From IMG/VR virus record IMGVR_UViG_3300009154_002812, positions 1 to 30,410 of that record: a stretch of DNA of 30,410 nucleotides; one strand, 5' to 3'. Of the stretch, positions 580-15,399 are shown one piece after another. This DNA comes from a virus. Each line of letters starts with the position of its first letter. The first letter of the stretch is position 1. The notes below the pieces were generated by a model that saw nothing but the letters and a program-made list of their open reading frames with translations, was not told the DNA's origin and made no database searches. The position numbers were made by a program, and so were the translations under genes.

Positions 580-607
580 AATGTATGTATTTATTAATAA
601 ATACAGT

Positions 608-1159
608 ATGATACTCACAACAACTCCAATTAAGCAACATACTCAGTTAGTACATTTAGATATGCCATACACATATGAAGAAGTTTTAAATGAGCTAAAC
701 ACATATGAGTTTAATGAAATTCATCCTTATCGTTATAATTCTGCAATAACCACCAAAATTCTTAGTGAAATAAGACAACTAATAGTTGACTACTCTTTTA
801 TAGATAAATTTTATGAAATAAAAGATTTTCAAAAGTTGTGGAATAATGTATCTAAGGAAGAACTTAAAAAAAAATGTAAGTTCGATTGTTCTTTACATCT
901 TGATAAACCTAAATTTTCTCTTACACCCCACCTTGATAGTAGACAAATTGTAATAGTTGGGATGATTTTCTTGAACCCAGTGAATGATATTAAACAAAAC
1001 TCTGTACTATATGATACAGAAAATATGCTGAATCCACAATATGTACCTTCATCATTTGGAGAAGGATGGGTTATGGCTAATGCACATAACACATGGCACT
1101 CAGGTGGAAACTCATCTGACTATGATAGATATAGTATATTGTTCACCTATACCATATAG
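608..1159 (+). CDS. Fe(II)/2-oxoglutarate-dependent oxygenase-like protein
   Basis: The 183-residue product has the facial triad of Fe(II)/2OG oxygenases: H108-x-D110 (TPHLDSR), a distal H164 (NTWHSGG), and R174 ten residues later (DRYSILF), the usual 2-oxoglutarate-anchoring position. The N-terminal hundred residues are mostly helical and unassigned. This is the only plus-strand protein gene I support in the window. It is divergent from the 394-579 ORF and sits between two tRNA groups. The ATG at 608 was preferred over the ATG at 581; neither has a clear ribosome binding site, and an AATAAATA motif lies at 596-603. It is distinct from the oxygenases of the 2483-12903 operon but uses the same fold. 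The substrate is unknown. Confidence 0.72.
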   Translation: MILTTTPIKQHTQLVHLDMPYTYEEVLNELNTYEFNEIHPYRYNSAITTKILSEIRQLIVDYSFIDKFYEIKDFQKLWNNVSKEELKKKCKFDCSLHLDKPKFSLTPHLDSRQIVIVGMIFLNPVNDIKQNSVLYDTENMLNPQYVPSSFGEGWVMANAHNTWHSGGNSSDYDRYSILFTYTI

Positions 1160-2482: not shown

Positions 2483-2508
2483 CTAAACGTTTAGACCTAA
2501 ACGTTTAG
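2483..2508. repeat. Two copies of the 12-bp palindrome CTAAACGTTTAG
   Basis: Perfect copies lie at 2483-2494 and 2497-2508, separated by two bases (14-bp period), so they could also pair as one hairpin. They encode the last residues and stop of the 310-residue PP-loop protein and lie 22 bp upstream of the -35 box of P1. AAACGTTT cores are typical of LacI-family operators, so a regulatory role is possible, but this is inference. Confidence 0.6.
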
Positions 2509-3415
2509 AGATGTGTCTTTGCACCCTGGCATCAGTGTTTTTATAGAAAGAAATCAATTCTTGTATTGGTATTATGATATGATGTTTGTCATATCTAACT
2601 TTATTAAGCAATGAATCGTTTTCTATCCAATCTATTTTTTCAAATCCTGTCAATTTTGGAAAGTATAATAATTCATCTCTCCAATACTTAGCCAAGAAGA
2701 AAGGTTTAACATAATACTCGTATCTTAGCACGTGGGGTATTTTTTTATGTTCTTGATTAGCTGCCTTTTCCATAATCAACCCGTTATCTTCAAAATATTC
2801 CCAACTGTGCAGGAACTGTTCAACTAGAGGATCTGATATGCAACTAAGCCACAACTCACTGGTGTCACCAAATATTACAATTTTACCTGATCGGTTTTCT
2901 ATAGCAGTCAATGCTCTATGTCTGGATACGTCAGGATCAAACCAACCATAATAAACATAATGTAATTTTTTTCTAAGCAACAACCATGGGGTTGACATAC
3001 ATTGCACTATATCATAATCATTTGGTAATTCTTTAACAAATAAATGTTGTAATGCGTGGTTAGGATGAACATCTGTTTGTTGCGCTATGTGTTCTATTTC
3101 TTCTCTTCGGGTATTTGGATTAATGTTGATTACGTTAGTCTTAAAACCATACTTTTTTTCTAAAAGTTTTACATTTTCGTATTCAGTTTCATTATAGCCG
3201 TCGACTCGTAGAAATGAGCATTCTACTGGAATGTCTTGAGTCTTTAGACTATGAAGTACTAATTGACTATCTAATCCACTACTTAAACAAAGCATCAATT
3301 TATCAGACGCAATTTCTCTAGCACGCCTGTCAAATTCTTCTCTATAGTTACCAATTTTTCTATTACTACTAGTGATATCTATATAGAACTTATAATCGTC
3401 AAATCCATATATCAT
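2483..3415 (-). CDS. PP-loop ATPase, asparagine-synthetase/QueC-like (copy 1)
   Basis: The 310-residue product carries the ATP-pyrophosphatase loop SSGLDS at residues 45-50, a following Rossmann-like region with the E-x-x-N...YGF pattern near residues 78-92, and an SGK...FGD-TSELW segment near residue 180. Such PP-loop enzymes adenylate a carboxylate or carbonyl carbon so that a nitrogen or sulfur nucleophile can attack. The N-terminal glutaminase domain of AsnB is absent, so ammonia or an amine must come from elsewhere. The start follows the upstream stop by 1 nt without a clear Shine-Dalgarno, suggesting translational coupling. It is the last gene of the 12903-2483 operon. The C-terminal codons coincide with two 12-bp palindromes. 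The loop resembles those of the 5913-7364 and 12031-12903 products. Confidence 0.75.
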   Translation of the reverse strand: MIYGFDDYKFYIDITSSNRKIGNYREEFDRRAREIASDKLMLCLSSGLDSQLVLHSLKTQDIPVECSFLRVDGYNETEYENVKLLEKKYGFKTNVININPNTRREEIEHIAQQTDVHPNHALQHLFVKELPNDYDIVQCMSTPWLLLRKKLHYVYYGWFDPDVSRHRALTAIENRSGKIVIFGDTSELWLSCISDPLVEQFLHSWEYFEDNGLIMEKAANQEHKKIPHVLRYEYYVKPFFLAKYWRDELLYFPKLTGFEKIDWIENDSLLNKVRYDKHHIIIPIQELISFYKNTDARVQRHISKRLGLNV

Positions 3416-3416
3416 A

Positions 3417-4154
3417 TCAAATTAAATTAAAGTGTTCGGTAATACCTGCTTTTTGAGCCCATTCTTTAGTAAACATTCCGTCTACTCTAAGACTCCATGC
3501 AGTGTATTGGGGATGACCGATACTAGAGTGAATGTTGTTCGTATTAAACACGCAGGCTTTAGCATTAGAGTAATGCACTTCATTTGTATCAGGATCTAAC
3601 AATCTTAGTTGTTTTGGAATTTTACCAGTTAACCAAATAAAAGGATCGTTTTTTTTTACCGTACTATCTGCAGGATAGTCTCTGTGATATGCGGTAGTTT
3701 GTCCAGGTTCGTTTATCCAAAAAATTACTCTACCATATGTGCTGAAACAATTTTGTGAATCTATCCAATCAAATAAAAATTTAAATTGGTCATCAAAAGA
3801 AAAAAGTGATGTAAATTCTCTTAGGTGTTTTGCCGAATATGTTGCCGGGTATCCTATATTTCCCCTTAGTACAAAATTAGTACCCAATGTAGCAGTGCCC
3901 AATAATTTGGCATAAATCCCTGCTTCTTTAAGTGTCATCTTATCGTGTAAGGAAGATTTTAATATTTGATCACGTTTTGCATAAACTGATACAGTGTTTT
4001 GGTCAAATAATGTATTTTGCGAGGTACCGGATGGAGAAAAATGTTGATGGTTTTTTGATAATGTATAACATATTTTATCGTTTATAGCATCAAATGACGC
4101 CATATCCAAATAACTTTCTAAGTTATAGAATATCTGATTGTTGATTAATTTCAT
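3417..4154 (-). CDS. Fe(II)/2-oxoglutarate-dependent oxygenase-like protein
   Basis: The 245-residue product has H157-x-D159 (TAYHRDYP), a distal H209 (NTNNIHSS) and R223 (AWSLRVDG), the complete iron and 2-oxoglutarate ligand set of the cupin-fold oxygenases. The NEPGQTTAYHRD segment resembles the aspartyl/asparaginyl hydroxylase-like branch. Such enzymes hydroxylate, desaturate or cyclise unactivated C-H bonds. The gene follows the ABM-like gene by 14 nt and precedes the PP-loop gene by 1 nt. It is one of three such oxygenases in the operon. The substrate is not predictable. Confidence 0.75.
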   Translation of the reverse strand: MKLINNQIFYNLESYLDMASFDAINDKICYTLSKNHQHFSPSGTSQNTLFDQNTVSVYAKRDQILKSSLHDKMTLKEAGIYAKLLGTATLGTNFVLRGNIGYPATYSAKHLREFTSLFSFDDQFKFLFDWIDSQNCFSTYGRVIFWINEPGQTTAYHRDYPADSTVKKNDPFIWLTGKIPKQLRLLDPDTNEVHYSNAKACVFNTNNIHSSIGHPQYTAWSLRVDGMFTKEWAQKAGITEHFNLI

Positions 4155-4168
4155 TTACTATTATTTAC

Positions 4169-4465
4169 TTAAACTTGTTCTTGCCAGAAAAAAAGTATAT
4201 CATGCTTGGAATTGTATTGTGCTCTAGCACGCCAATTTGGTACTAAGACAGGGTCATCTCTAAATGGTTCCCAATCAGCTTTGCTTGTCCATGTAGCATT
4301 GATTGTTTGAACATATTTATCCTCGCTAATAGTGGTTAAATATTCCTCAATTGCCCCGGTATTTTTATAGGTTGTGTTAATGTGTTCCTGTATTTCTTCG
4401 GGAAACTGCCAAAAAGGTATTGTTTTATCTGACCTAAAAGATGTTATTGTATATTTAAAACTCAT
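4169..4465 (-). CDS. Small conserved-type protein, dimeric alpha/beta barrel-like
   Basis: The 98-residue product has the pattern of ABM/ferredoxin-like dimeric alpha/beta barrels: a helix with EEYLTTISED, a beta strand QTINATW and the segment SKADWEPFRDDPVL near residues 61-74. Family members include small monooxygenases and stress proteins, but I see no specific catalytic signature. AGGAG lies 10 bases before the ATG, and a GATAAATA motif at 4485-4492 (overlapping the upstream stop) may be a late promoter. It sits inside the modification-type operon between a PP-loop ATPase and a 2OG oxygenase. Confidence 0.6.
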   Translation of the reverse strand: MSFKYTITSFRSDKTIPFWQFPEEIQEHINTTYKNTGAIEEYLTTISEDKYVQTINATWTSKADWEPFRDDPVLVPNWRARAQYNSKHDILFFWQEQV

Positions 4466-4490
4466 ACTTATGTGCTCCTATCTGTATTTA

Positions 4491-5672
4491 TCATATAGCT
4501 ATTATATTAGGTGGTAAACTATTTTCAATCTTTCCTATCAGGTACTGGTGTCTAAAAGTAACTAATGCATCTGGAACTCCCGCTTGGGTAAAGTATACAT
4601 ATTTTGGTATAGTCTTTACTAGATGCTGAATTCCTCGTTTCCAAATTTCTCTCTCATTTGAGAATAAAGCTGATTTACGAAACCAATTATCAAACTCAGT
4701 ATTCCACCAAGCAGTAGCTTTGTCCGTCTGAAACCAAGTGTTATCCCAAGTAGTATATATTATATTACGCAACCATTTTTCGTGATATTTTCGGCGAGTA
4801 TACATAGAAGTGTTGATCCAAAATCGCTGTTTACCTGGATTTTTTTCTAACCATCGTTTAATAACATGTGCCTGTTTACACATGATATCTGTCGCATCCT
4901 TACTCCAGTAAAACAATTCAGTTGTTACATTTGTATAGTCTCTATTAAAATCGTTTATTGTAGTAATATTAGCAGTGGCGTCGTTAAAAAACAAATAAAA
5001 ACTAGTGTTATCAATGTTGGATATAAATGTTTTTGGTTTATCTACTCCTACAATAATAGCAACTTTCAAGTTTTTATCAAATTGTTTTTTCATATTTCCA
5101 AAATGAAAGTAGTTGTATCTAAATAATTGACCAACTGACAAATGATCATTTTTATGTAGGACCCAATCACCATCGGTACTTGTATTCAACTCACTCAAAA
5201 CATTATTACTCACATCTAATACAGTAATTTTGGTTTTAGGTAATTTTTCAGAAATATATTTTAACCGCGGAATTGCTTGTAATTCATGTTCGGCTGAAAA
5301 GTTCCAACTTTCTTTAAACTCTGTGTCTAATACAGTTGATTTTTTGGTAATTTCGCTTATATGATTAGTTACAATTTCATCAATATGCAAACCCTGTCTG
5401 ATGAAACTTTCTAATATGTTGTTTGTATCGGAACCCCCGCTATAACTTAAAATAATATAATCATATTTTTCTCTAAGTTGTCGTGTTCTTTTATCGTATA
5501 ATTGGTCTAAACTCTCAGATGGTTCAATATGCCATAGGTATTTTGAAAACGTATCTTGATTAAACATCCATTCAATGGGTTTATCTACTGTAGTGCTATA
5601 GATACAAGCATCAATTTTTGATCCAAAATCAATGCCGTTGCAACGGTAGTAACTAAGATCCGTGTTAAGCAT
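4491..5672 (-). CDS. PP-loop ATPase-like protein (copy 2, divergent)
   Basis: The 393-residue product contains SYSGGSDTNN with the PP-loop SGGSDT at residues 78-83, preceded by a hydrophobic strand (YIILSY), the geometry of N-type ATP pyrophosphatases. The rest is unlike the other three copies: a long middle region and a tryptophan-rich C-terminal half (about residues 290-350). It overlaps the upstream DUF2061 gene by 8 nt. It presumably activates a different substrate. The distance from AsnB and QueC is large, so the function is open. Confidence 0.68.
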   Translation of the reverse strand: MLNTDLSYYRCNGIDFGSKIDACIYSTTVDKPIEWMFNQDTFSKYLWHIEPSESLDQLYDKRTRQLREKYDYIILSYSGGSDTNNILESFIRQGLHIDEIVTNHISEITKKSTVLDTEFKESWNFSAEHELQAIPRLKYISEKLPKTKITVLDVSNNVLSELNTSTDGDWVLHKNDHLSVGQLFRYNYFHFGNMKKQFDKNLKVAIIVGVDKPKTFISNIDNTSFYLFFNDATANITTINDFNRDYTNVTTELFYWSKDATDIMCKQAHVIKRWLEKNPGKQRFWINTSMYTRRKYHEKWLRNIIYTTWDNTWFQTDKATAWWNTEFDNWFRKSALFSNEREIWKRGIQHLVKTIPKYVYFTQAGVPDALVTFRHQYLIGKIENSLPPNIIAI

Positions 5673-5916
5673 CTATTTTTCCCACATCAGTAATATCTTT
5701 TCCCCAGCCGGAGCGATTCCAAACCCGTTCGTGGAAGAAATATAAAGTGCTATTAACTATAGTAGTAAGGCTAGCTAATCCTAAACCAAATACTATACTA
5801 CCCGTAGTGTAATAACCAATAATAAAATATTGAAAAATAATTAACAGTCTCCAACTAATCATTTTTGCTAATGAGCGTGGTATCTTTTCTTGAAATTTTG
5901 ATTTTAAACTATTCAT
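5665..5916 (-). CDS. DUF2061-family membrane protein
   Basis: The 83-residue product matches the DUF2061 pattern as I know it: an R-S-L-A-K...SWR motif at about residues 14-23, two hydrophobic segments (about 24-40 and 43-60) around a T-T-G turn, and a conserved C-terminal FHERVWNRSGWG. DUF2061 proteins are small integral membrane proteins of unknown function that often sit beside sulfate-activation or sulfonation genes, which fits the sulfotransferase-like gene upstream. It overlaps its neighbours by 4 nt (upstream) and 8 nt (downstream). Confidence 0.85.
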   Translation of the reverse strand: MNSLKSKFQEKIPRSLAKMISWRLLIIFQYFIIGYYTTGSIVFGLGLASLTTIVNSTLYFFHERVWNRSGWGKDITDVGKIDA

Positions 5917-7364
5917 GTTATATCCTTATTAATGTAATCAATAGGTCGGGATACTAAAGAATAATTATTTAATACCTCGTAGCCTATTTTTGGACCGGCA
6001 TGTTCAGTCATTTGTTTATTGGTGTGTAATATAGTAGAATAAACCGTTTTTCGATTTTGTGACTTTGCAATTATATCAACACATGCATGTAATTGCTTAT
6101 GTATGCCATGTCCTCTATGCTGATTGTTTACATATGCCAATCTAATAAACAGAGAGTCTAGATATGATGCACTATGATAAAATATACCTGCAATAATTTC
6201 AGTTCCTTTTTTGAGTAACACACCACCATCTATTGAATGCGGCTGTGGTCTATTTAAATAATCTGCTGTATCCGTTTGGTATAATTGAAACATTTTTTCA
6301 TATTCAGCAACTAGCATAGGATTAGAATGACTATACAATACAAAGTCATAATCTAAATATTTTTCGCTAGGGGCTATACTTACATTGGGTTCTTCAATTA
6401 CTTTATCGGTATTTTCTTTAAATTCTGCGTTCATCGAAACAAATCTAGCATCCTCACCGTACATCCATTCGCTATAATCTTTATATGTGGATCTAGAATT
6501 TTCTAAAAAGTCTACAAGATCCCAGTAGGGCACTGATACTTTTGTTTCCTTAATCATACAGGAATCTTTGAACCAGCTAGGATATGTTTCGTATCCGCTT
6601 AATTTACCATACCATAATATATCATTTTTAAAATGTCTGGCCTTCATCATACCTTTGCCGTAGTAATTCCAATAATTGCCGGGCTTTAAAATAGAACCAT
6701 AAGAGAAAGACAATTTATTTTCATGGTAATATTGAATTGAGTTACAAAATGATTTTACAAAATCATCAGTATAATAACTTGCAATTGATTCCGGGCTATA
6801 TGGGAAATCAATAACTTTTCTACTCTTGCCCATCATTCTAAAACGCTGTTGCATTGTTTCAAAATAATTACAGTATATCGACATTTTAGCTGTGTTACTA
6901 CCAATAATCTCAGGATCGTTTGCACCTTGAGTAATGATAGGGTAATCTCCGTCTAGTTGTTGGCTAAGCCACTCAAACGGATAATGAAACATGGAGAATG
7001 GGTGCTCTGTTTTACTACGTTCTATCCATTTCTCTTTATGTTCATCTAAGTTAATATCAACGATTCTAACTTTAAATCCAAAGAATTTTTCACATTCACG
7101 GACATGTGCTAATTCAACATCACTATGACCGACTGAGTTTAAAAAAACATATTCAGCATCTACACCCATATCTAAAAATGTTCTAGCTATGACTTGACTA
7201 TCGACACCCGAGCTAAACAACACATATACTTGCCCATATGTGTTCTTAATCTGCACAGCATCATTATTTGCTTCAGTTCGGAAATCAGAAAAATTTCTAT
7301 CCGGAGCTTGATATCGGACAATACATTGTTGTCCTTCTAATCTATATTCTAACCCTTGTTTCAT
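5913..7364 (-). CDS. PP-loop ATPase fused to a GNAT acetyltransferase (copy 3)
   Basis: The 483-residue product has two modules. The N-terminal part carries the PP-loop SSGVDS at residues 51-56, a C-E-K-F-F-G-F-K segment near 121-128, and TQGANDPE near 145-152, like the other PP-loop copies. The C-terminal part (about 335-480) is a GNAT fold with the acyl-CoA pyrophosphate-binding motif Q415-x-R417-G-H-G420-I. The fusion implies that the product of the ATP-dependent step is acylated, or that both domains act on one scaffold. The start is 8 nt from the sulfotransferase-like stop. A TATAAATA sequence at 7370-7377 overlaps that stop and is probably fortuitous. Confidence 0.8.
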   Translation of the reverse strand: MKQGLEYRLEGQQCIVRYQAPDRNFSDFRTEANNDAVQIKNTYGQVYVLFSSGVDSQVIARTFLDMGVDAEYVFLNSVGHSDVELAHVRECEKFFGFKVRIVDINLDEHKEKWIERSKTEHPFSMFHYPFEWLSQQLDGDYPIITQGANDPEIIGSNTAKMSIYCNYFETMQQRFRMMGKSRKVIDFPYSPESIASYYTDDFVKSFCNSIQYYHENKLSFSYGSILKPGNYWNYYGKGMMKARHFKNDILWYGKLSGYETYPSWFKDSCMIKETKVSVPYWDLVDFLENSRSTYKDYSEWMYGEDARFVSMNAEFKENTDKVIEEPNVSIAPSEKYLDYDFVLYSHSNPMLVAEYEKMFQLYQTDTADYLNRPQPHSIDGGVLLKKGTEIIAGIFYHSASYLDSLFIRLAYVNNQHRGHGIHKQLHACVDIIAKSQNRKTVYSTILHTNKQMTEHAGPKIGYEVLNNYSLVSRPIDYINKDIT

Positions 7365-7372
7365 AGCTATAT

Positions 7373-8041
7373 TTATATGTATTCCGGTGGTGCTAAAATC
7401 TTCTTTAAATACCCAGTAACTTCATTTATATTTTCAATTGTTACTACATCTTTTGCATTTTGAATAACATACTTAGTGCTAGGTTTCCACCAATTATTTT
7501 TTGGTAAAGTTAACATATCCTCATAACAAATCTCTAAAGGATTAAATCTATTTGTTACCATTTCTGTGTTTTTATCACATTGGTCTAATATATACAATGC
7601 ATCGTCAATCAATGCGTTAGTTACCCTTATACTTTTTTTGTTTATTGTATTATGTAATTCTAATGTATTAAGTGCTATTAATAAACTCCAAAATGTATCT
7701 CGTTTGTTTTTTCTTTTTAAAAGAATATATTGTAAATCTTTCTTTTCAAAAAAGTCACATATAGGTTCAGTAAGTAAATGCAGGTGCGTTTTTACTGATA
7801 TTGCTTTATGTTTTTCTAAAAACATGTCAAATAAATCAAATCGATAATCTAAATCATTAGCCGCAGTGGTTGAATAATTATATTGTATTCCTGTATCTAA
7901 ATTTACACTTTTTATACCACAATACATAGTAAACAATTCACTTAAATTAAATTGAGGTAAGCTATCTTGTATCCAAGTGCTACCGCTTCTGGGATGGCTT
8001 AAGATAACAATTGGTCGTGTTATGTCAATAGTAAATGCCAT
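7373..8041 (-). CDS. Sulfotransferase-like protein
   Basis: The 222-residue product begins with a strand (PIVILSH) followed by PRSGSTW at residues 17-23, the 5'-phosphosulfate-binding loop of PAPS-dependent sulfotransferases. The ICYEDML segment in the C-terminal third matches the conserved tyrosine-glutamate-aspartate block seen in many members. It would transfer a sulfuryl group from PAPS to a hydroxyl or amine. No PAPS-synthesis gene lies in the window, so PAPS would come from the host. It overlaps the upstream oxygenase gene by 22 nt. The assignment to the superfamily is good; activity on PAPS is inferred. Confidence 0.75.
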   Translation of the reverse strand: MAFTIDITRPIVILSHPRSGSTWIQDSLPQFNLSELFTMYCGIKSVNLDTGIQYNYSTTAANDLDYRFDLFDMFLEKHKAISVKTHLHLLTEPICDFFEKKDLQYILLKRKNKRDTFWSLLIALNTLELHNTINKKSIRVTNALIDDALYILDQCDKNTEMVTNRFNPLEICYEDMLTLPKNNWWKPSTKYVIQNAKDVVTIENINEVTGYLKKILAPPEYI

Positions 8042-8598
8042 GGGTCTTTTATAAATCTAAAACTAATTGTAATACGAACTTCATTTGTGTCATTGCTAAT
8101 AGCATGCGGAACAGTGTTATTCATAAGTGTTGGATTATTTAAAACATACCTATCAATTTCTTTCAACTTGGATTCTGCATAAAATATATAAGATCCTTCA
8201 GATGGATCAGGAAGAGGTATATACTGTTTTGGACCGCTTAGATATTCATAAAATATCACCGGTGTTTCATTATAGTTTTGTATTCCAAAATTTAAACTTA
8301 AACAACCTGAAGTATCACCTGATTCGGCCGGTGGTTCTATATTTCTATCTACATGAGCATCTCTTTCTCCTGCCCCGGGATGTACAACTATATAACAAAC
8401 CTTTTTTAAGTTGTCATTTAATTGTATTGATGTAAGATAGTTAACTGCGCTAGTGCAATTTGCAAAAAACTTGAGTAAGTCTACACTCCATAAACCTGTT
8501 GGTTTGCCCTCACAATAAGGTAGAATAAAATCTGTTAATTCTTTATGTATTTCTTTCAGATTTGGTATATCTAATTGCTTATACGTGATGTAGGTCAT
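8020..8598 (-). CDS. Fe(II)/2-oxoglutarate-dependent oxygenase-like protein
   Basis: The 192-residue product shows H82-x-D84 (DAHVDRN), a distal H165 (TVPHAISND) and R175 (EVRITISFRF), the full facial triad plus 2-oxoglutarate arginine. The HPGAGERDAH stretch leading into the first ligands is typical of the family. It overlaps the next oxygenase gene upstream by 4 nt and the sulfotransferase-like gene downstream by 22 nt, so the three are probably translationally coupled. The substrate is unknown. Confidence 0.75.
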   Translation of the reverse strand: MTYITYKQLDIPNLKEIHKELTDFILPYCEGKPTGLWSVDLLKFFANCTSAVNYLTSIQLNDNLKKVCYIVVHPGAGERDAHVDRNIEPPAESGDTSGCLSLNFGIQNYNETPVIFYEYLSGPKQYIPLPDPSEGSYIFYAESKLKEIDRYVLNNPTLMNNTVPHAISNDTNEVRITISFRFIKDPWHLLLT

Positions 8599-9296
8599 TT
8601 TATTAAATGCTGTATATCTTCAGTGCCGTTAATAGAAATCATAAACGTATATCTGTCGTGTTTACTAAAATTTATTACAGCGTGTTTAAAGCCAGTATTT
8701 AAAAAATATGCATTACCCGGAATAAATGTAACGCACTCAACATTATTTTTAACCCAGAATAGATTAACACATTCACTATCCGCAAATATAGGAATTATAA
8801 TACGTACTGCGTAGCTAGGATCATAGTCAATATGTGGTGAAATACTTGTGCCTGCACCTAATTTAACTAAACGAATTCTAGTAGGTTTGCCTTTAAACTT
8901 TTCAATTATTTTGTCAAATATAGGTGCATATCTATTATAGGTATCATTTTTTACAGTATATGTTGATTCATTCAATACACTATTTTCATCAACCACCAAA
9001 GATTGTTTGTATCGGTATCCACTAGTATGTAATGTATCATGTATTACTTCGCATTCATCTATTGTAATAAGCTTATTTTCATTTATGCTATCAGTTAAAC
9101 CAATTTGAAAAAAGTTGTCGTAAACTGATTTAGCTAATTCATGGTGTACACCGCACAACCCTTTATTAACTTCTAATACTGATTTAAATTCATTATTCAG
9201 TTCAACTATACATTTTTCTAATTCGGATAATAACAATCCATCTAAACACAAATGGTCTATTACACTATAAGTAGGTAATCGATATTTTAACTTCAT
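8595..9296 (-). CDS. Fe(II)/2OG oxygenase, aspartyl/asparaginyl beta-hydroxylase-like
   Basis: The 233-residue product contains the pattern LGAGTSISPHIDYD with H155-x-D157, then GNAYFLNTGFKHAV with H205, and DRYTFMISI with R215. This spacing and the cupin-like LNTGFKHAVIN block resemble aspartyl/asparaginyl beta-hydroxylase-like enzymes. The N-terminal 120 residues are not assigned. It overlaps the desaturase gene by 4 nt (ATGA) and the following oxygenase gene by 4 nt. It hydroxylates an unknown substrate; a protein or an amino-acid-derived metabolite are both possible. Confidence 0.78.
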   Translation of the reverse strand: MKLKYRLPTYSVIDHLCLDGLLLSELEKCIVELNNEFKSVLEVNKGLCGVHHELAKSVYDNFFQIGLTDSINENKLITIDECEVIHDTLHTSGYRYKQSLVVDENSVLNESTYTVKNDTYNRYAPIFDKIIEKFKGKPTRIRLVKLGAGTSISPHIDYDPSYAVRIIIPIFADSECVNLFWVKNNVECVTFIPGNAYFLNTGFKHAVINFSKHDRYTFMISINGTEDIQHLIK

Positions 9297-10000
9297 TTGA
9301 TGCTCAATAACTTATGAAAATGGCCGCCCCAATCAGCCCAGTGTCTAAAAGAGGGGTTAGCTGGCTGGTCGTGATGATTCTTGTGCCATCCTTCGCCTCC
9401 ATTTAAAAAACCTAATAGGGTTACATTAGCTGGTCCATTTTTATCATGGCAAAACACATTTACTAAACTTCCACCCATCCACATTAATATAGCAGGTACT
9501 ACAAGAATCATCCAATAATATTGAAACGGTAATAATATCAAACCTATGATATGAAGTGAATGTAATACTTGAAAATAGTATTTGTGTTGAAAGACATACA
9601 ACGGCTTTCTAAGTAAGTCTGGAACATATTTGATAATGTCTTTATCATTATTTGACATTTGCCAATATGACCTAAATCGACCCATTACAATTGGGCTGTG
9701 TGGATCTTTTTCTGTATCACTATATCTGTGATGTTTTCTATGTACGCCTGCCCAAGCAATTGCAGATGATGTTGCACCCAACCACGATAACATTAATAAT
9801 ATTTTTTCAGCTAGTGGATGTATTGAATTTTTGTGTGATACAGTCCTATGAAATAACATGGTCCCGCACAACCCCACGTATACTATTTGTGATAATATAA
9901 GTGTGGGGACAGTTACATACCATGGGAATAAAAATAATCCCACTATAAATAAAATATGCAAGTATACTTGCGTTGTAATGAGTTTTTGTTTGTAGGTCAT
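9293..10000 (-). CDS. Fatty-acid desaturase, acyl-CoA (delta-9) type
   Basis: The 235-residue membrane protein has all three histidine boxes of the desaturase family: H51-RTVS-H56, H87-RK-H90-H91, and H206-KN-H209-H210, with hydrophobic segments at about 10-45, 62-80 and 150-183. These ligands hold the di-iron centre that inserts a double bond in an acyl chain. It resembles compact bacterial and phage delta-9-type desaturases. In this operon it could modify host membrane lipids or an acyl group of the operon's product. The start follows the GNAT stop by 12 nt. Confidence 0.88.
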   Translation of the reverse strand: MTYKQKLITTQVYLHILFIVGLFLFPWYVTVPTLILSQIVYVGLCGTMLFHRTVSHKNSIHPLAEKILLMLSWLGATSSAIAWAGVHRKHHRYSDTEKDPHSPIVMGRFRSYWQMSNNDKDIIKYVPDLLRKPLYVFQHKYYFQVLHSLHIIGLILLPFQYYWMILVVPAILMWMGGSLVNVFCHDKNGPANVTLLGFLNGGEGWHKNHHDQPANPSFRHWADWGGHFHKLLSIK

Positions 10001-10012
10001 ATTATTATTTAT

Positions 10013-10543
10013 TCACAGCTTCATAGTTAGTAACCATTGTTCAACTCCGTTAAACATTACCGGTTCATTAGATGCAACAAAAGTGTGATTAGGGAAAGCT
10101 TTAGGTAAAAGATATCTTTGATTTAAAACAAACAATGTGTAATTATAATCATTAAACGAAATAATAACGCTATCACAATTTAAATTTTTGGCTCTTTCAA
10201 TTTGATATGTAGTATTATACATGTGAGTATAAGATTTGACACCTAATCCTTTATGTCTGTTGTCAGCATTAGAGAACCCACGAAATACTGCTTGATACAC
10301 TTTGTTACCTTCAAACTCTCTAATCATTCCACCTGTTGCCGTCCAAAATTTATCATTTACATATAATAATTGATATGTATCAATTTTCTCATCTCTAATT
10401 AAACTTAATAAACTCCATGGATGAAGAGTGCTATAGTTTTCAGGTATATTTTCCCCAAATTTTTCAATTAACGCCAACTTCAATTTTATAGTAAACTCAC
10501 TTTTATTTTCTTTGGTGAGTGTAACCATTTCTACCTTATCCAT
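10013..10543 (-). CDS. GNAT-family N-acetyltransferase-like protein
   Basis: The 176-residue product shows the GNAT core: a beta strand FWTATGGMI, a strand YQAVFRGFSN, and the acyl-CoA loop NRHKGLG near residues 97-103 followed by a helix. The SVIISFNDYNYTLFVLNQRY segment matches the strand-turn-helix after it. The gene lies 1 nt after the radical SAM stop. The substrate is unknown; small molecule, peptide and sugar acceptors all occur in this family. Confidence 0.68.
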   Translation of the reverse strand: MDKVEMVTLTKENKSEFTIKLKLALIEKFGENIPENYSTLHPWSLLSLIRDEKIDTYQLLYVNDKFWTATGGMIREFEGNKVYQAVFRGFSNADNRHKGLGVKSYTHMYNTTYQIERAKNLNCDSVIISFNDYNYTLFVLNQRYLLPKAFPNHTFVASNEPVMFNGVEQWLLTMKL

Positions 10544-10544
10544 A

Positions 10545-12041
10545 TTAAAATTTCAAATTAGTATGCTTCTTCAATAATTCTATTGCCCTAGCTCTTTCAA
10601 ACGAAGGACCAACATCAAATATTTTTAATTGATTAACTGTTTTATTTTCTATGTCATCATCTGAAATACCCATATGCCACGCAGTTGGTAATATCCAACC
10701 ACCGGCTCGTCTTTTTATATTAGATATATTATTTAAGGTAATTCCCAATTTATGAGCGGCTGGCATATCTATGAATTCATTTTTCCAATGTATGAAGTGA
10801 CCCGGAGCTCCGGGAATTACGGGTATTTTATTTACAACCTCATATCCAAATTTTTCAGGATTATTATCTATTTCACTTGCACCTTTACCATATTTGTCAA
10901 TATACATACCGAGGCCACTGAAGTGCCAACTAACACAAAATTCATCTTGATTTTTTATCATGTATGTTAGTGTTTTGTATTGATTATCAACCGTGTCATG
11001 TGGTAATCCTACAATGAAACTAGCTTCTAGTTTTACATTAGTACGTTGTCTGAACAGTTTAACTGCGTCTGCAACTCTGTCAAAATCCATGCCCTTCTTT
11101 ACAGCTTTTCTAGATTCGTTGTTCATACTTTCCATACCCAAAAACCCACCTGACACACCTAACGCTTTCATTTTGTCAATCATTTCAGGTTTAGTTGCCA
11201 GTAGTTCAGGCTTAAGATATGACATAAATTTAAAATCCGGTAACTTAGCCATATCAATTGCTCTATGTAATCTATCTAGTTTTTCCATGCTATCATTAAA
11301 GGTGTCATCCATTAAAATATATCGTGTTGTACCAAACTGCTCATAATTGCGTCTTAATTCTCTTGCTAAACTTTCAGGTGTTCTTTGATAGCTATCATAA
11401 TCTTTTGCCCCTTGAAAAGGATGACTGCAAAACGAACATCTAAATATACATCCACGTGCTACTTCTAATGGCACAGGTTGATAAGATAAAAAATTATCTT
11501 CTACATCAAGTACAGTTTCAATTTCATCCGGATTCATAATTTTATGATTGATATCACTCTGTACTACTTTCTTACCATTATCAGTATCTACAAAATATTT
11601 TAATCCATGATTTGGTTTGCCACTGAATAAGTCTAATAGTTTAGTATAAGATATATCACTAAAACCCACTAGAACCCAGTCACAATTTCTATATACAATT
11701 TGAGAACCCTTGACCCATGGACCACCTGGTCCACCGCATACAAATTTTACATGAGGGTATTTAACACGCAAGTCGTTAAAAAACTTATCATTAATCCAAT
11801 TAATATCAGATTTTTGATATCCATCTAACCACGCAATACTAAAACCCAACATCAATGTTTTTTCGGTTACTACACTGTCTAACAATGTTGTTAATTCATC
11901 CCAAGACATTGAAGGTGCTGTATCTATAACAAAAGTTTCATAACCATATTTTCTTCCTTCTGTTCTTAATCTATAACCGGCTAATATCCTACCACCAATC
12001 AAATGTCTATTACCGCCTATAAAAATTGCATCATATTCCAT
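10545..12041 (-). CDS. Radical SAM enzyme with an N-terminal B12-binding-like domain
   Basis: The 498-residue product has C198-x3-C202-x2-C205 in the segment ARGCIFRCSFCSH, which binds the 4Fe-4S cluster that cleaves SAM. Residues 1-150 form a Rossmann-type domain like the cobalamin-binding domain of the B12-radical SAM family, but I do not find the DxHxxG base-off histidine motif; a GGNRHLIGG stretch sits near the start instead. The middle segment FLGMESMN (about 300) matches a conserved SAM-barrel strand. Such enzymes do methyl transfer, ring formation or oxidation. It overlaps the upstream PP-loop gene by 11 nt. IscU, encoded upstream, could help build its cluster. Confidence 0.85.
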   Translation of the reverse strand: MEYDAIFIGGNRHLIGGRILAGYRLRTEGRKYGYETFVIDTAPSMSWDELTTLLDSVVTEKTLMLGFSIAWLDGYQKSDINWINDKFFNDLRVKYPHVKFVCGGPGGPWVKGSQIVYRNCDWVLVGFSDISYTKLLDLFSGKPNHGLKYFVDTDNGKKVVQSDINHKIMNPDEIETVLDVEDNFLSYQPVPLEVARGCIFRCSFCSHPFQGAKDYDSYQRTPESLARELRRNYEQFGTTRYILMDDTFNDSMEKLDRLHRAIDMAKLPDFKFMSYLKPELLATKPEMIDKMKALGVSGGFLGMESMNNESRKAVKKGMDFDRVADAVKLFRQRTNVKLEASFIVGLPHDTVDNQYKTLTYMIKNQDEFCVSWHFSGLGMYIDKYGKGASEIDNNPEKFGYEVVNKIPVIPGAPGHFIHWKNEFIDMPAAHKLGITLNNISNIKRRAGGWILPTAWHMGISDDDIENKTVNQLKIFDVGPSFERARAIELLKKHTNLKF

Positions 12042-12903
12042 AACTATTATTTTTTTCTATTAATTTAAAATATTCATGGTTGCTGGAGCCCCACCATTTT
12101 TCTTTCCAACTATTAACTAATTGGATATCGGGGTGATTGAATATAGGACTTTGTTCTACTATTTCATACCCGTGTTTCTTACTACGTTGTTCTAACTTAA
12201 ATTTATTTTGATTATTGTATACATGTACTTTACTTGAATAAGAACCCGTTTTACCAGGTATAATATTATTTATTAATTGTTGCATTGTCGGGTCTGTCAA
12301 AAACGCAAAAAACTGTTCGGAAGTATAACTTAAAAAGAAAGGAGTCCCGTATATGTTGTTGTTTTTAAAGAATTCAAATTGAGTGTAAACCGGTTCTATT
12401 TCATCCACATACCATTTGCCATCAGTATGTAATAGTAAATGAGGATTAGAATCACCTGTAATTACAGTGCCGTCGATCTGAGTAGTAAGCCACAAATTAC
12501 TAGGAAGCTGATATGCGGCTATTTTATATTCTGTTGCAATTTTTAAAAATTCACCCGATTCAACAAACTTGTCATAGTCTAAATCAATAACAACAGGTGT
12601 AATACTATTTTCATCACAATACTTAAATGCATATTGAGTTTCATGGTGATTATATTGTGTACGCATAATTACTGGAGTAATTGGCATACCCAAAGATTTA
12701 AATACAGCTAATGCATATTCACTATCAAGTCCACCGCTATAACACAAAAACAAGTTACCTTGCTTTTGTGACCATACTATTTCTGCTACATTAACTGTTT
12801 CTTCATAATAGGAACTAATGGGTCTAACAGGACTGCTTATTTCAACATTCCATGTAGACCCATTGCCACTACTTTGTAAGTAGTTAGAATAAAGTAACTT
12901 CAT
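12031..12903 (-). CDS. PP-loop ATPase, asparagine-synthetase/QueC-like (copy 4)
   Basis: The 290-residue product has LFLCYSGGLDSE with the PP-loop SGGLDS at residues 56-61, followed by an HHETQYAFKYCDENSITP segment that parallels the other copies, and TGDSNPHLL near 148-156. Its loop is the closest of the four to that of AsnB. There is no glutaminase domain. The start is 5 nt after the ahpD stop and the end overlaps the radical SAM gene by 11 nt, making it the first gene of the modification operon. Transcription may continue from the ahpC promoter at about 14018. Confidence 0.75.
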   Translation of the reverse strand: MKLLYSNYLQSSGNGSTWNVEISSPVRPISSYYEETVNVAEIVWSQKQGNLFLCYSGGLDSEYALAVFKSLGMPITPVIMRTQYNHHETQYAFKYCDENSITPVVIDLDYDKFVESGEFLKIATEYKIAAYQLPSNLWLTTQIDGTVITGDSNPHLLLHTDGKWYVDEIEPVYTQFEFFKNNNIYGTPFFLSYTSEQFFAFLTDPTMQQLINNIIPGKTGSYSSKVHVYNNQNKFKLEQRSKKHGYEIVEQSPIFNHPDIQLVNSWKEKWWGSSNHEYFKLIEKNNSYGI

Positions 12904-12908
12904 TAGTG

Positions 12909-13454
12909 TTACGGTGCTACTTTACCAATCGCTGTAACAACTGCGGCAATACGACCCACTGCCATCAATTCTTGCGTAGTCATGCCTTCAGCCTTTAGAG
13001 TGTTATAGTGTGCTTTAACACAGAAATGACATTTACCAACAATACTTGCGGCTAATGAATACATTTCGAATTTCTTCTTAGATACACCACCGTGAGTAGC
13101 ATACGCATTCATACGTAATCCTGCAGGTAAACCCTTCATGCCTTCATCACCTGCCATTTCAACGAATGGATACCATATATTGTTTTGACCCATGAGACTT
13201 GCGGCTGACTTTGCGGCTTCACGTTCTTCTGCACCCATTAGTGGCCCGTTCATTTGAATTTCAAATGCTAGTTCACCGTTTCCTGATGCAATAGCGGCTG
13301 CTAATGCACAAGCATGTGCATCAATCAAATCTAGACCACTGCGATTAATAACCGCATCTAAATTCAACTTAATGTCTTTAGAATGATCTGGTATAGATTC
13401 TTTTATGTTTGCAACCCAGTCGCCTCCGATTGTGATTGGATTGATTTCATTCAT
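12909..13454 (-). CDS. ahpD: AhpD-like alkylhydroperoxidase (carboxymuconolactone decarboxylase family)
   Basis: The 181-residue helical protein carries GKCHFCVKAHYNTLKAEG near residues 140-157: the redox-active C-x-x-C followed by H, the active site of AhpD. AhpD reduces the peroxiredoxin AhpC and has weak peroxidase activity itself. The gene overlaps ahpC by 4 nt (ATGA), so the two are translated together. The protein looks very like bacterial AhpD, so this is probably a host-derived auxiliary gene. Confidence 0.88.
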   Translation of the reverse strand: MNEINPITIGGDWVANIKESIPDHSKDIKLNLDAVINRSGLDLIDAHACALAAAIASGNGELAFEIQMNGPLMGAEEREAAKSAASLMGQNNIWYPFVEMAGDEGMKGLPAGLRMNAYATHGGVSKKKFEMYSLAASIVGKCHFCVKAHYNTLKAEGMTTQELMAVGRIAAVVTAIGKVAP

Positions 13455-13990
13455 AGCGTTGCGCCACCGATAGCACGATTACATGGGCATAGTTCGCCAG
13501 TTTGTAATGCGTCTAATACACGCAATGTTTCTTCTGGGCTACGACCAACGTCTAAGTTGTTAACTGTGATGTGTTGGATAACATTTTGCGGATCAACAAT
13601 GAATGTTGCACGTAGTGCCGCACCTGCCGGAGCATAGAATACTCCTAACTGATTAATCAAGCTACGCTCATCACGTGCTGTGTCAGCAAATTGATTATGA
13701 CTAATTTTTGCTAAGTCTGGGTGTGCTTTTTGCCATGCTACTTTACAGAACTCGTTATCTGTTGAACCTGTTAACAATACTGCGTCTCGGTCAGCAAAAT
13801 CACTTGCTAGCTTATCAAATGCTACGATTTCTGTAGGGCATACAAAAGTAAAATCTTTTGGATAGTAAACGATAATTTTCCATTTACCTGTAAAACTTTC
13901 TTCTGTAATTGGGAAGAATGCATCTTCCGATTGTCCTGGTTTAACACCTGTTAATACAAATGCTGTTAATTTATCACCGACTGTTTTCAT
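13451..13990 (-). CDS. ahpC: Peroxiredoxin AhpC, typical 2-Cys
   Basis: The 179-residue product contains the peroxidatic site DFTFVCPTE near residues 47-55 and the resolving cysteine in a C-terminal GELCPCN, so it is a typical 2-Cys peroxiredoxin. It reduces hydrogen peroxide, alkyl peroxides and peroxynitrite, with electrons from AhpD next door. An AAGGAG site lies 6-7 bases before the ATG. The 70-nt upstream gap holds an extended -10 promoter overlapping a palindrome, and a TATAAATA late-promoter motif. Peroxiredoxin genes are rarely carried by phages, so this looks acquired. Confidence 0.93.
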   Translation of the reverse strand: MKTVGDKLTAFVLTGVKPGQSEDAFFPITEESFTGKWKIIVYYPKDFTFVCPTEIVAFDKLASDFADRDAVLLTGSTDNEFCKVAWQKAHPDLAKISHNQFADTARDERSLINQLGVFYAPAGAALRATFIVDPQNVIQHITVNNLDVGRSPEETLRVLDALQTGELCPCNRAIGGATL

Positions 13991-14015
13991 AATTTCTCCT
14001 TGTGTGTAGTCTGTA

Positions 14016-14044
14016 TGAGTATAACATACTCAGCATTATTTATA
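14016..14044 (-). promoter_or_regulatory. Promoter region of ahpC with palindrome
   Basis: The complement reads TG-T-TATACT, an extended -10 box at 14026-14018, with only a weak -35 (TTGTAT at 18 bp). The -10 box is embedded in a perfect 7-bp inverted repeat TGAGTAT-GTT-ATACTCA (14016-14032), a good operator candidate. A TATAAATA motif on the complement (14044-14037) is a T4-type late-promoter match. The actual factor is unknown. Confidence 0.55.
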
Positions 14045-14060
14045 CAAGAAAAAGGGTGAA

Positions 14061-14360
14061 TTAATCTTCTGCTGGGATTAAACCATTACTATGTTTGTCT
14101 GATGTTTTTTCAACATCTTGGAATAGACGTTTTTCTTGCTGTGTTAATTCATTAAATGTCTTGCGAGGATTACCGCACATCAGACAACCGGGTTGACCGC
14201 AATCCATAGCATGGTGTTTTGCTAAACGATGTGGCTCTTTGATTGTTTTGTCGTAAAAGCCTAAACCATGCTGTTTAGCAATACGAACTTGTCTTGCGAC
14301 TGCTATATCATTTTTATGACGGCGGCGACTGTTTATAAATTTTGCGATTTCGTTGCTCAT
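14061..14360 (-). CDS. Small Cys-rich protein with CG-x-C-x2-CGNPRK motif
   Basis: The 99-residue, basic protein has an RRRHKN segment near the N-terminus and C-G-Q-P-G-C-L-M-C-G-N-P-R-K near residues 54-67, a likely zinc site. I recall small proteins with a similar CxxCxNPR end-motif in phages and bacteria, function unknown. A near-consensus sigma70 promoter ends only about six bases before its ATG, so the message may be leaderless. There is no membrane segment. Confidence 0.7.
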   Translation of the reverse strand: MSNEIAKFINSRRRHKNDIAVARQVRIAKQHGLGFYDKTIKEPHRLAKHHAMDCGQPGCLMCGNPRKTFNELTQQEKRLFQDVEKTSDKHSNGLIPAED

Positions 14361-14395
14361 ACTAATATTTTATCAGATATCTATAAATTTGTCAA
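14361..14395 (-). promoter_or_regulatory. sigma70-type promoter with extended -10
   Basis: On the complement, TTGACA (14395-14390), a 17-base spacer and TAAAAT (14372-14367) are preceded by TG-A, giving an extended -10. The predicted start falls at or within a base or two of the ATG at 14360. The -35 and spacer overlap the end of the 14373-15041 gene. Confidence 0.65.
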
Positions 14396-15041
14396 TACAG
14401 TATTGAGTTTTATTTCTCCAATGTATCAATGATTCACGTGAGAAATTATTTGTATCAATCTCTGTAAATATACTTATCTTAGATATCAATTCTTCAACAT
14501 TTCCTTTAAACAACTCTTTCCAAGAGATGAATAACACATTAGGCATGTTTTCTATTTTGGTAAATTTTGATTTCCAAGATATAGCCCCATGTTTAATAGT
14601 TCTCGGGGTTTGTTTCATAAAATTATGTTTTATTGGATCATATGTATCTACTACAAACTTACCATAAAACACTGTTGCGATTTCTGAAATATCATCCAAA
14701 TCATAAGTTATTCGTATAGACCTTTTAAAATTATCATTAATTAAATTTATATCGGTAATGTGTGAAGGTGTATAATATGGTTTTTCTGCGGTATCTCGCA
14801 ATAGTCCTGATAATATAAAATTTATTTTTTCAATATCAGGGTCTGGTATTCCGGCTGGATGACCAGATATATCTCTCAAATTATGCTGATGTGCATTCCC
14901 ATGTTCACTGAGTTTAATTACAGTTTTTATATTTCTTTTTGCACTTATTATAAAATGACATAAAAAATTCCCACCAGTACCTGCCATATACGTAATAGGA
15001 ATTATATCTTCATTGGGAAGCATGTCTTTGTTTATAATCAT
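14373..15041 (-). CDS. P-loop/sulfotransferase-like protein (tentative)
   Basis: The 222-residue product begins with a strand and glycine-rich loop PITYMAGTGGNFLC at residues 16-29, compatible with the 5'-phosphosulfate-binding loop of sulfotransferases or another nucleotide-binding loop. The rest is unassigned. A NMPNVLFISWKELF stretch near residue 165 resembles the strand-helix region of sulfotransferases. It overlaps iscU by 32 nt in another frame, so the start at 15041 lies well inside iscU, an unusually long overlap. Confidence in a real gene is good, in the function low. Confidence 0.6.
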   Translation of the reverse strand: MIINKDMLPNEDIIPITYMAGTGGNFLCHFIISAKRNIKTVIKLSEHGNAHQHNLRDISGHPAGIPDPDIEKINFILSGLLRDTAEKPYYTPSHITDINLINDNFKRSIRITYDLDDISEIATVFYGKFVVDTYDPIKHNFMKQTPRTIKHGAISWKSKFTKIENMPNVLFISWKELFKGNVEELISKISIFTEIDTNNFSRESLIHWRNKTQYCIDKFIDI

Positions 15042-15399
15042 TTACTGCGGCTTTGATGGCGTCTTCCGCAAGGATTGAGCAATGGATTTTGACTGGGGGG
15101 AGTGCAAGTTCTTCTGCGATTTGAGAGTTTCGGAGCTTGGCAGCTTCGTCAAGTGTTTTACCTTTGACCCACTCAGTGACAAGACTTGAGCTAGCAATAG
15201 CCGACCCGCACCCATATGTTTTAAATTTGGCATCTGTTATTAATCCTGTTAATTTATCTACTTTAATTTGCAACTTCATTACATCCCCGCATGCAGGGGC
15301 ACCAACCATACCTGTACCTACATCGTTATCGTCTTTTGCAAAACTCCCGACGTTTCTTGGATTTTCGTAGTGGTCTATTACAGCGGTTGAGTAAGCCAT
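15010..15399 (-). CDS. iscU: Iron-sulfur cluster scaffold IscU
   Basis: The 129-residue product is a full-length, bacterial-type IscU. It has VGAPACGDV (first cysteine and the stabilising Asp), FKTYGCGSAIASSS (second cysteine), and LPPVKIHCSILAEDAI (HscA-binding LPPVK plus third cysteine). It assembles 2Fe-2S and 4Fe-4S clusters, needing IscS and HscA/HscB from the host. Around 15045-15200 the DNA is visibly richer in G+C than its neighbours, and the protein is close to proteobacterial IscU in wording, both pointing to recent acquisition. AAGGA precedes the start. It may feed the radical SAM enzyme or offset peroxide damage. Confidence 0.95.
   Translation of the reverse strand: MAYSTAVIDHYENPRNVGSFAKDDNDVGTGMVGAPACGDVMKLQIKVDKLTGLITDAKFKTYGCGSAIASSSLVTEWVKGKTLDEAAKLRNSQIAEELALPPVKIHCSILAEDAIKAAVNDYKQRHASQ

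Follow-up and report, generated by a model that had tools for sequence, protein, structure and literature searches.

The window analysed here is a virus record of 30,410 bases (IMG/VR record IMGVR_UViG_3300009154_002812) with a tight operon of 13 genes, all on the minus strand (2483-12903), for PP-loop ligases, GNAT acyltransferases, a membrane desaturase and oxidising enzymes. We read this operon as the local form of a conserved, modular, thiotemplate-like pathway that giant freshwater phages would use to make a desaturated, hydroxylated acyl amide, and a probability of about 0.5 is assigned to this reading; the existence of a shared pathway is itself likely. Gene content, gene order, fold and selection make up the observed part of the proposal. 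An earlier note on this DNA had suggested a dedicated biosynthetic pathway of the phage, a view that is partly supported overall. The enzyme folds are known ones; nothing searched matched this combination of genes as a phage system, and no description of it was found in the open-access literature searched.

A conserved ligase-GNAT-desaturase core

Following genes for acyl carrier proteins (ACPs) outward revealed the order GNAT1-ACP-PPL4t-GNAT2-desaturase, read in loci of two scans (PPL4t is a ligase of the type of PPL4, the first PP-loop protein of the window's operon). Further IMG/VR scans were seeded with the PPL4-type ligase (78 loci, from the best 80 of 82 relatives) and with GNAT2 (53 loci), and the two sets overlap in many contigs. 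The seed alignments were built from core-bearing members, and the counts hold for those subfamilies; the seed gene was not found in 4/78 and 1/53 loci. Loci were dereplicated at 95%, representatives at contig edges were removed (6/59 ligase-seeded, 1/43 GNAT2-seeded), and neighbours were counted up to three genes away on the same strand. In the GNAT2-seeded set, the ligase lies directly upstream in 42/42 loci, accompanied by a desaturase in 41, any 2-oxoglutarate (2OG) oxygenase in 33, and an ACP in 15. Conversely, the ligase-seeded set shows GNAT2 directly downstream in 52/53 loci, a desaturase in 51, and an ACP in 21. Clustering is also seen across large records: of the 17 desaturase genes in nine jumbo records, 13 have a PP-loop match no more than 8 kb away versus 2.0 expected, a number reached in 0/20,000 permutations (record G018, with neither PP-loop nor desaturase, is left out). 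Two or more desaturases occur in 34/184 loci (not dereplicated) with a within-locus median identity of 32%; several diverged desaturases per locus would fit successive desaturation.

Genes found with the core in relatives point to acyl-thioester chemistry. GNAT1 and ACP are fused in one gene of contig 3300017917_002237 (L122:6782-7549; Pfam PP-binding 1.8e-4, Acetyltransf_7 1.1e-3), and an AcpS-like gene, detected with a hidden Markov model (HMM) made here, lies inside the operon of contig 3300032327_000996 (seen as loci L256 and L300). Around a PPL4 relative, loci L016 and L018 carry genes for ACP, AcpS, FabZ, and a ketosynthase, Pfam-confirmed on L016. The fusion and the adjacency in relatives are suggestive of acyl-ACP as the donor, though suggestive only. 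On L016, the stretch 7180-13531 carries two ACP genes, and the ketosynthase shows a C-H-H triad by reading. The label of GNAT2 rests on its structural model (pLDDT 86.8; GNAT fold, Z 14.8), because its family (c44) gave no hhalign alignment to the GNAT1 families; a convincing Pfam match of GNAT2 was not obtained either. The window itself has the ligase, GNAT1, the desaturase and 2OG oxygenases of this core.

A family of probable asparagine-synthetase-like ligases

The four PP-loop proteins of the window (PP-loop ligases PPL1 to PPL4) belong to one paralogous family, of which iterated HMM search across the first 19 loci collected 39 members. All four carry the motif S[GS]GxD[ST], and S56, G58, and D60 are invariant in an alignment of 38 members. 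The motif begins at residues 45-78, which leaves no room for an N-terminal Ntn glutaminase domain; likewise, none of the four gave a glutaminase Pfam match at E<=1. The fold comparison covers PPL4 alone of the four (AlphaFold2 model, mean pLDDT 92.3, 290 residues). With VIA-align, human asparagine synthetase (ASNS) ranks first (Z 14.8, rmsd 4.0, 251 residues), followed by AsnB (13.8), beta-lactam synthetase (13.5), and carbapenam synthetase (12.7); 241-252 residues are aligned in the 11 rows for these enzymes, at a sequence identity of 7-12%. Lower Z values were obtained for LarE (10.7), the hydroxyamidotransferase TsnB9 (10.5), NAD synthetase (NadE, 10.4), and the nitrile synthetase ArtA (9.0). 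As modelled, the predicted fold of PPL4 is thus nearest to asparagine/beta-lactam synthetases, limited to the synthetase domain, which makes the earlier remark that PP-loop ATPases adenylate carbonyl groups more specific. The top-scoring entries of a viral model library are unnamed uncultured Caudovirales proteins, one of them called asparagine synthase, and the best NCBIfam model of a PPL4-type relative is asparagine synthase (6.8e-4, far below cut-off).

Searches by tblastn, which can overlook distant relatives, gave no match for PPL2, PPL3, PPL4, a PPL4-type relative or GNAT2 in 50,697 phage records and none for the PPL4-type relative in 72,556 plasmids; the radical SAM protein and GNAT1 gave remote matches only in the phage records. 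A scan of genome contigs with PPL3 yielded one weak match, in Algibacter, and no PPL4-type match was present at 1e-8 in 395 genomes of that phylum (a search run with no positive control). With bacterial genomes thinly sampled, and those outside Bacteroidota hardly searched, the gene set may yet have a bacterial source; Proteobacteria are the likelier hosts. Paralogues can accumulate in one phage: seven PP-loop genes lie in about 10 kb of one contig (L020:933-10882), and TctC-type genes come after two of these.

The operon of the window and its close relatives

The earlier note placed a tight same-strand operon at 2483-12903, and the open reading frames are found there; its title spoke of twelve genes, whereas its own list has the 13 that are present. 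The run opens with PPL4 (12031-12903; SGGLDS at residue 56), a core gene, and an accessory radical SAM protein (10545-12041; CIFRCSFC, Pfam Radical_SAM 5.5e-18). The latter gave no B12-binding Pfam match; its best NCBIfam models are B12-type/PhpK radical SAM enzymes (1.1e-20, far below cut-off). The core acyltransferase GNAT1 (10013-10543) has no Pfam match of its own and is homologous by hhalign (96.8%, E 2.6e-10) to the ACP-linked GNAT1 family c14, a member of which matches Acetyltransf_1 at 7.3e-5. It is followed by the core membrane di-iron fatty-acid desaturase (9293-10000; Pfam FA_desaturase 7.3e-9; HRTVSH, HRKHH, HKNHH) and by 2OGa, a 2OG/Fe(II) oxygenase of the Asp/Asn hydroxylase type (8595-9296; Pfam Asp_Arg_Hydrox 1.3e-5; HID...H).

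Farther down are 2OGb, a probable 2OG/Fe(II) oxygenase (8020-8598; HVD...H), and a sulfotransferase-like P-loop protein, ST (7373-8041), with Pfam Sulfotransfer_1 at 0.0068 and at 2.1e-4 for its orthologue, both below cut-off. PPL3-GNAT (5913-7364; SSGVDS), a family member by iterated HMM, joins a PP-loop ligase to a C-terminal acetyltransferase-like domain (residues 384-451, PHROG acetyltransferase match 1.1e-3). The remaining genes encode the accessory small membrane protein DUF2061 (5665-5916; Pfam 7.2e-15), the long ligase PPL2 (4491-5672; SGGSDT), of a type often found beside a Bug/TctC gene in other phages, a 98-aa protein (4169-4465) whose family recurs near PPL2-type genes, the probable 2OG/Fe(II) oxygenase 2OGc (3417-4154; HRD...H), and, as last gene of the run, PPL1 (2483-3415; SSGLDS).

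Most labels of the earlier note stand. Those of the four PP-loop proteins, the radical SAM protein, the desaturase, the first 2OG oxygenase and DUF2061 are supported by motif or Pfam, and that of GNAT1 by homology to its Pfam-matched family. For 2OGb and 2OGc, which lack a Pfam match, there are the HxD...H motifs and an iterated HMM that reached them from 2OGa at 4.4e-5 and 7.4e-5, weak evidence open to drift. The sulfotransferase label has its sub-threshold Pfam score, and 'ABM-like', the name given to the 98-aa protein, found no profile support in three members tested. The labels 2OGb, 2OGc, ST, and ABM depend on motifs or on weak profile scores.

Nine contigs, found with the radical SAM protein, PPL3 or PPL4, share the window's locus. 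The order PPL4-(radical SAM)-GNAT1-desaturase-2OGa is kept in 8/9 (loci L001, L002, L003, L011-L013, L014, and L015); the ninth contig stops inside the radical SAM gene. The same order occurs in the more distant contig L089. Upstream of it, relatives carry IscU and either AhpC-AhpD or a rubrerythrin-like protein of 154-155 aa (by reading). The remainder varies. The radical SAM gene takes the window's position in 2/8 close contigs, and in the 352-kb relative L003 PPL4 runs straight into GNAT1. There, a sulfotransferase-like gene (by reading; Pfam 0.035) stands where the window has DUF2061 and PPL2; the PPL2 of L002 is a 26% relative, and a TctC-type binding protein comes next. For PPL1, PPL2, ABM, and 2OGc, L002 and L003 have diverged versions, other genes in their place or no counterpart, and DUF2061 at the locus was seen, among the first loci, only in the window's 524-kb relative. 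Since the radical SAM gene, DUF2061, PPL2, and others differ between close contigs, the locus is a stable core with a modular remainder. What the earlier note had set as a check, a conserved set in many phages, is found for the ligase-GNAT-desaturase core, with ACP and 2OG genes in many, but not for the 13 genes as a fixed set. An inseparable 13-gene pathway was rejected, given that the radical SAM gene, ST, DUF2061, PPL1, and PPL2 vary between relatives.

Proposed pathway and alternative explanations

For substrate, tethering, amide formation, product, and role, we infer the following course. The glutaminase-less ligase of the asparagine-synthetase type would adenylate a carboxylic acid with ATP and couple it to a nucleophile, either a carrier thiol or an amine. 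The acyl chain would then reside on an ACP, phage-made where present and host-derived in the window's phage. The membrane desaturase would make the chain unsaturated. It would be decorated by the 2OG oxygenases and by radical SAM and sulfotransferase-like enzymes, a task that P450, Rieske enzymes, and a fatty-acid hydroxylase would take on in other phages. GNAT enzymes may move the acyl group onto an amine, yielding an acyl amide, and the extra PP-loop ligases may form extra amide bonds. The outcome would be a small acyl amide, unsaturated and hydroxylated, produced during infection. Among the earlier guesses, a lipid or amide metabolite is favoured by the ACP, AcpS, FabZ, and ketosynthase genes of relatives; a modified surface glycan finds no glycan-enzyme Pfam match among the 13 genes.

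Several observations weigh against this pathway. No ACP was detected within three genes in 32/53 ligase-seeded and 27/42 GNAT2-seeded loci; neither ACP nor GNAT2 is present in the window, and its 524-kb and 352-kb relatives likewise yielded no ACP. Therefore, the carrier and GNAT-transfer steps rest on other phages, and any carrier used by the window's phage would come from the host. The structural neighbours of GNAT2 among the matches listed are CoA-dependent acetyltransferases, and desaturases of the membrane type may act on phospholipid or acyl-CoA. The ketosynthase alone is not special, because tblastn matched it in 29 phage records (20-29% identity among the 20 matches listed). PP-loop enzymes that add sulfur or ammonia have the same fold as PPL4 (LarE, NadE), Foldseek used alone puts an NMN synthetase, LarE, and an MnmA-type enzyme at the top, though at low TM-scores, and one phage paralogue (L011:17229-18149) passes the Pfam QueC cut-off (25.2 versus 22 bits); for these reasons, amide formation is no more than a candidate reaction.

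The genes might instead remodel host membrane lipids or lipid A, the desaturase and oxygenases altering acyl lipids and the ligases and GNATs altering head groups, which would change fluidity or block other phages with no free metabolite made. Membrane desaturases, the fatty-acid hydroxylase of relatives (Pfam 3.6e-12) and the membrane protein DUF2061 in the window agree with this, and lipid desaturases are known from cyanophages. However, the carriers, the GNAT-ACP fusion, and the ketosynthase/FabZ set of relatives point to acyl-thioester intermediates, and we know of no asparagine-synthetase-type ligases that act as lipid head-group enzymes; lipid remodelling is rated as rather unlikely.

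It is improbable that unrelated auxiliary genes have merely accreted at an insertion hot spot with no common pathway. The radical SAM gene, ST, DUF2061, and extra PP-loop genes come and go between relatives, and the radical SAM family is common elsewhere: it is only loosely tied to PP-loops, because just 16 of the 80 radical-SAM-seeded loci (best 80 of 489 relatives) have them (desaturases, 21). Against accretion stand the near-invariant order of the core in both dereplicated sets, the fusion of one core gene pair, and a clustering of PP-loop and desaturase genes far above chance. Accretion is thereby weakened for the core and is possible for the radical SAM gene, ST, DUF2061, and 2OGc.

Nutrient scavenging, in which PPL2-type ligases and Bug/TctC binding proteins would import and amidate host carboxylates, is quite improbable. 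It draws on Bug genes beside many PPL2-type genes: in the PPL2-seeded loci (best 80 of 364 relatives, not dereplicated), a Bug gene lies at most two genes away on the same strand in 42/78, and one is directly downstream of 31/110 PPL2-type genes. Adjacent pairs co-diverge (r 0.70 versus a permuted maximum of 0.27, n=30), but such mirror-tree agreement may mean joint inheritance only. A crude signal-peptide test was passed by 29/30 Bug proteins, but also by 9/30 PPL2-type proteins. By Pfam, the window's operon has no Bug gene, and scavenging leaves the desaturases and ACP unexplained.

Modification of tRNA or phage DNA by PP-loop ATPases like QueC, TilS, ThiI, and TtuA with radical SAM and GNAT partners is highly improbable and was dropped as first choice. 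In its favour are resemblances to the profiles of ThiI, QueC, LarE, and MnmA, most of which stay below cut-off, the QueC-passing paralogue, and the eight tRNA genes of the window. Against it, VIA-align matches the PPL4 model over more residues and with a higher score to ASNS/beta-lactam synthetases than to thiolases, and the partners conserved beside the ligase are of lipid type (membrane desaturase, GNATs, ACP).

The acyl amide pathway can be extended to a wider, more tentative proposal, held with somewhat less than even confidence: uncultivated T4-like jumbo phages may own a fast-diversifying natural-product pathway in which an asparagine-synthetase-type enzyme replaces the acyl-AMP ligase, and the lineage-specific unsaturated acyl amide may be a signal, a weapon or a host-control molecule. 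The glutaminase-less ligase would then perform the carrier-loading or amide-forming step. A dedicated unsaturated-amide pathway is chemistry not expected in phages. If it is real, jumbo phages carry a conserved modular biosynthetic pathway, beyond borrowed single host metabolic genes, and some supply the carrier protein themselves, along with activating ligases and tailoring enzymes; this would constitute a new source of chemistry and raise the question of why a phage needs a specialised metabolite.

Phage context, transcription and selection

The window's proteins are identical in a 524,565-base IMG/VR contig, as far as they fall inside the fetched stretches (loci L001 and L004), so the window is probably a piece of that phage's genome or of a nearly identical one. 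The gp23-type major capsid family was matched in 10/10 large records (206-525 kb, including the 524-kb relative; the match in G015 is partial), which had been picked because of PP-loop or radical SAM matches. Host contamination was considered and rejected in view of the tRNA genes and of gp23 in the matching 524-kb record; NrdA-, NrdB-, and tail-fibre-like genes of the window (labels by reading, with no profile search) also speak against it. The 524-kb contig (G001) contains two diverged copies of the locus with flanks, at 104-147 kb and 405-436 kb (L185 and L186), and a single gp23 match despite the two copies; it may be a chimera of two related phages or bear a real segmental duplication.

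Genes for AhpC, AhpD, and IscU adjoin the operon (12909-15399). Within the 13 genes, intergenic gaps range from -22 to +25 nt. The transcription unit probably starts two genes earlier, at AhpC-AhpD (12909-13990), because the gaps there are only -4 and 5 nt; from AhpC downward the gaps are -4, 5, -11, 1, 12, -4, -4, -22, 8, -4, -8, 25, 14, and 1 nt. The probable first gene encodes an AhpC-like peroxiredoxin (13451-13990, minus strand; Pfam AhpC-TSA 1.1e-20) and overlaps by 4 nt the gene of an AhpD/CMD-family protein (12909-13454, minus strand; Pfam CMD 1.8e-14), which ends 5 nt upstream of PPL4. Terminator-like sites (consensus matches only) number 15 in the scanned region versus 6.9 in shuffles; this excess shows none at the operon's end, and five sites inside the operon on the minus strand count against a single transcript. 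Promoter-like sites are not above chance (73 versus 78.2 expected). The octamer TATAAATA, which we take to be the T4 late-promoter octamer, has six copies in the window, which equals the chance expectation; one copy lies at 14037-14044 (minus strand), in the gap upstream of AhpC.

Rough dN/dS values, with dS often >1, are 0.066-0.236 in the 11 operon genes compared, each with a single orthologue (DUF2061 and PPL2 fall outside the comparison), and by this sequence measure these 11 genes appear to be under purifying selection.

Further neighbouring families

Among the 78 PPL2-seeded loci, neighbours include Bug/TctC (51), desaturases (44), the 'ABM' family (44), radical SAM (23), P450 (12), Rieske (11), and ACP (10); like the radical-SAM-seeded counts, these are not dereplicated, and the loci are often near-duplicates. 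Pairs of PPL2-type and Bug/TctC genes (L002, L014, L015, L020, L046, L093, and others) sometimes occur with no other tailoring genes nearby, and tblastn of a TctC-type protein matched two phage records. Pfam confirmed, in one or two members each, P450 (2.8e-17), Rieske, and fatty-acid hydroxylase neighbours, as well as a nitronate-monooxygenase-type protein and a TRAP receptor. The P450 gene lies on a phage contig (L028:3187-4323) and shows a heme-binding Cys motif by reading. The TRAP dicarboxylate receptor, also on a phage contig (L064:17407-18354; DctP, 5.1e-40), has cluster members in 9 loci. On the strand opposite to the operon, a further possible 2OG oxygenase (581-1159, plus strand) is 96% identical in L028.

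Comparison with known systems

Temperate phages can bear biosynthetic clusters for bacteriocins and ribosomally synthesised and post-translationally modified peptides (RiPPs), and they share with the present system a phage-borne specialised metabolism; here, in contrast, the carriers are T4-like jumbo phages with gp23 (no systematic search for RiPP precursors was made). The lipid desaturases of cyanophages are likewise phage-borne membrane desaturases, whereas those described here belong to a conserved ligase-GNAT operon, which often has several of them, diverged from one another.

FeeM, an N-acyl amino acid synthase, has a GNAT fold. With its ACP, it parallels the phage system in coupling a GNAT enzyme to acyl-ACP, a donor whose use by the phage enzymes is suggested only; the phage set differs in adding a PP-loop ligase and oxidising enzymes. 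The phage GNATs tested gave no Pfam or NCBIfam match to N-acyl amino acid synthases, and neither FeeM nor LuxI is among the 50 matches listed for GNAT2, which shows nothing by itself. Long-chain acyl-ACP is what N-acyl amino acid synthases use (PMC8762209).

Asparagine, beta-lactam, and carbapenam synthetases have in common with the phage ligases the PP-loop motif SGGxDS and, for the PPL4 model, the fold of the synthetase domain. In contrast to them, the phage ligases were found with no glutaminase domain, are only 7-12% identical, and have numerous paralogues, with desaturases, GNATs, and ACP as gene neighbours.

A parallel in overall logic is offered by JamABC and the polyyne core. In JamABC, an acid is activated by JamA at the expense of ATP and passed to the ACP JamC, on which the membrane desaturase JamB works on it (PMC4356899); the bacterial polyyne core is FAAL-2xFAD-ACP-FAD-H/TE-Rd (PMC9098870). 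Differences concern the activating enzyme, which in the phages is a PP-loop enzyme and not an acyl-AMP ligase (the 13 window genes gave no AMP-binding Pfam match at E<=1, as would mark a fatty acyl-AMP ligase of the ANL type), the GNATs in place of a thioesterase, the optional ACP, absent from the window, and the location on phage genomes. What they share with the phage set is an ATP-dependent activating enzyme next to an ACP and a membrane desaturase, and by analogy the general logic of activating, tethering, desaturating, and releasing an acyl chain resembles that of JamABC.

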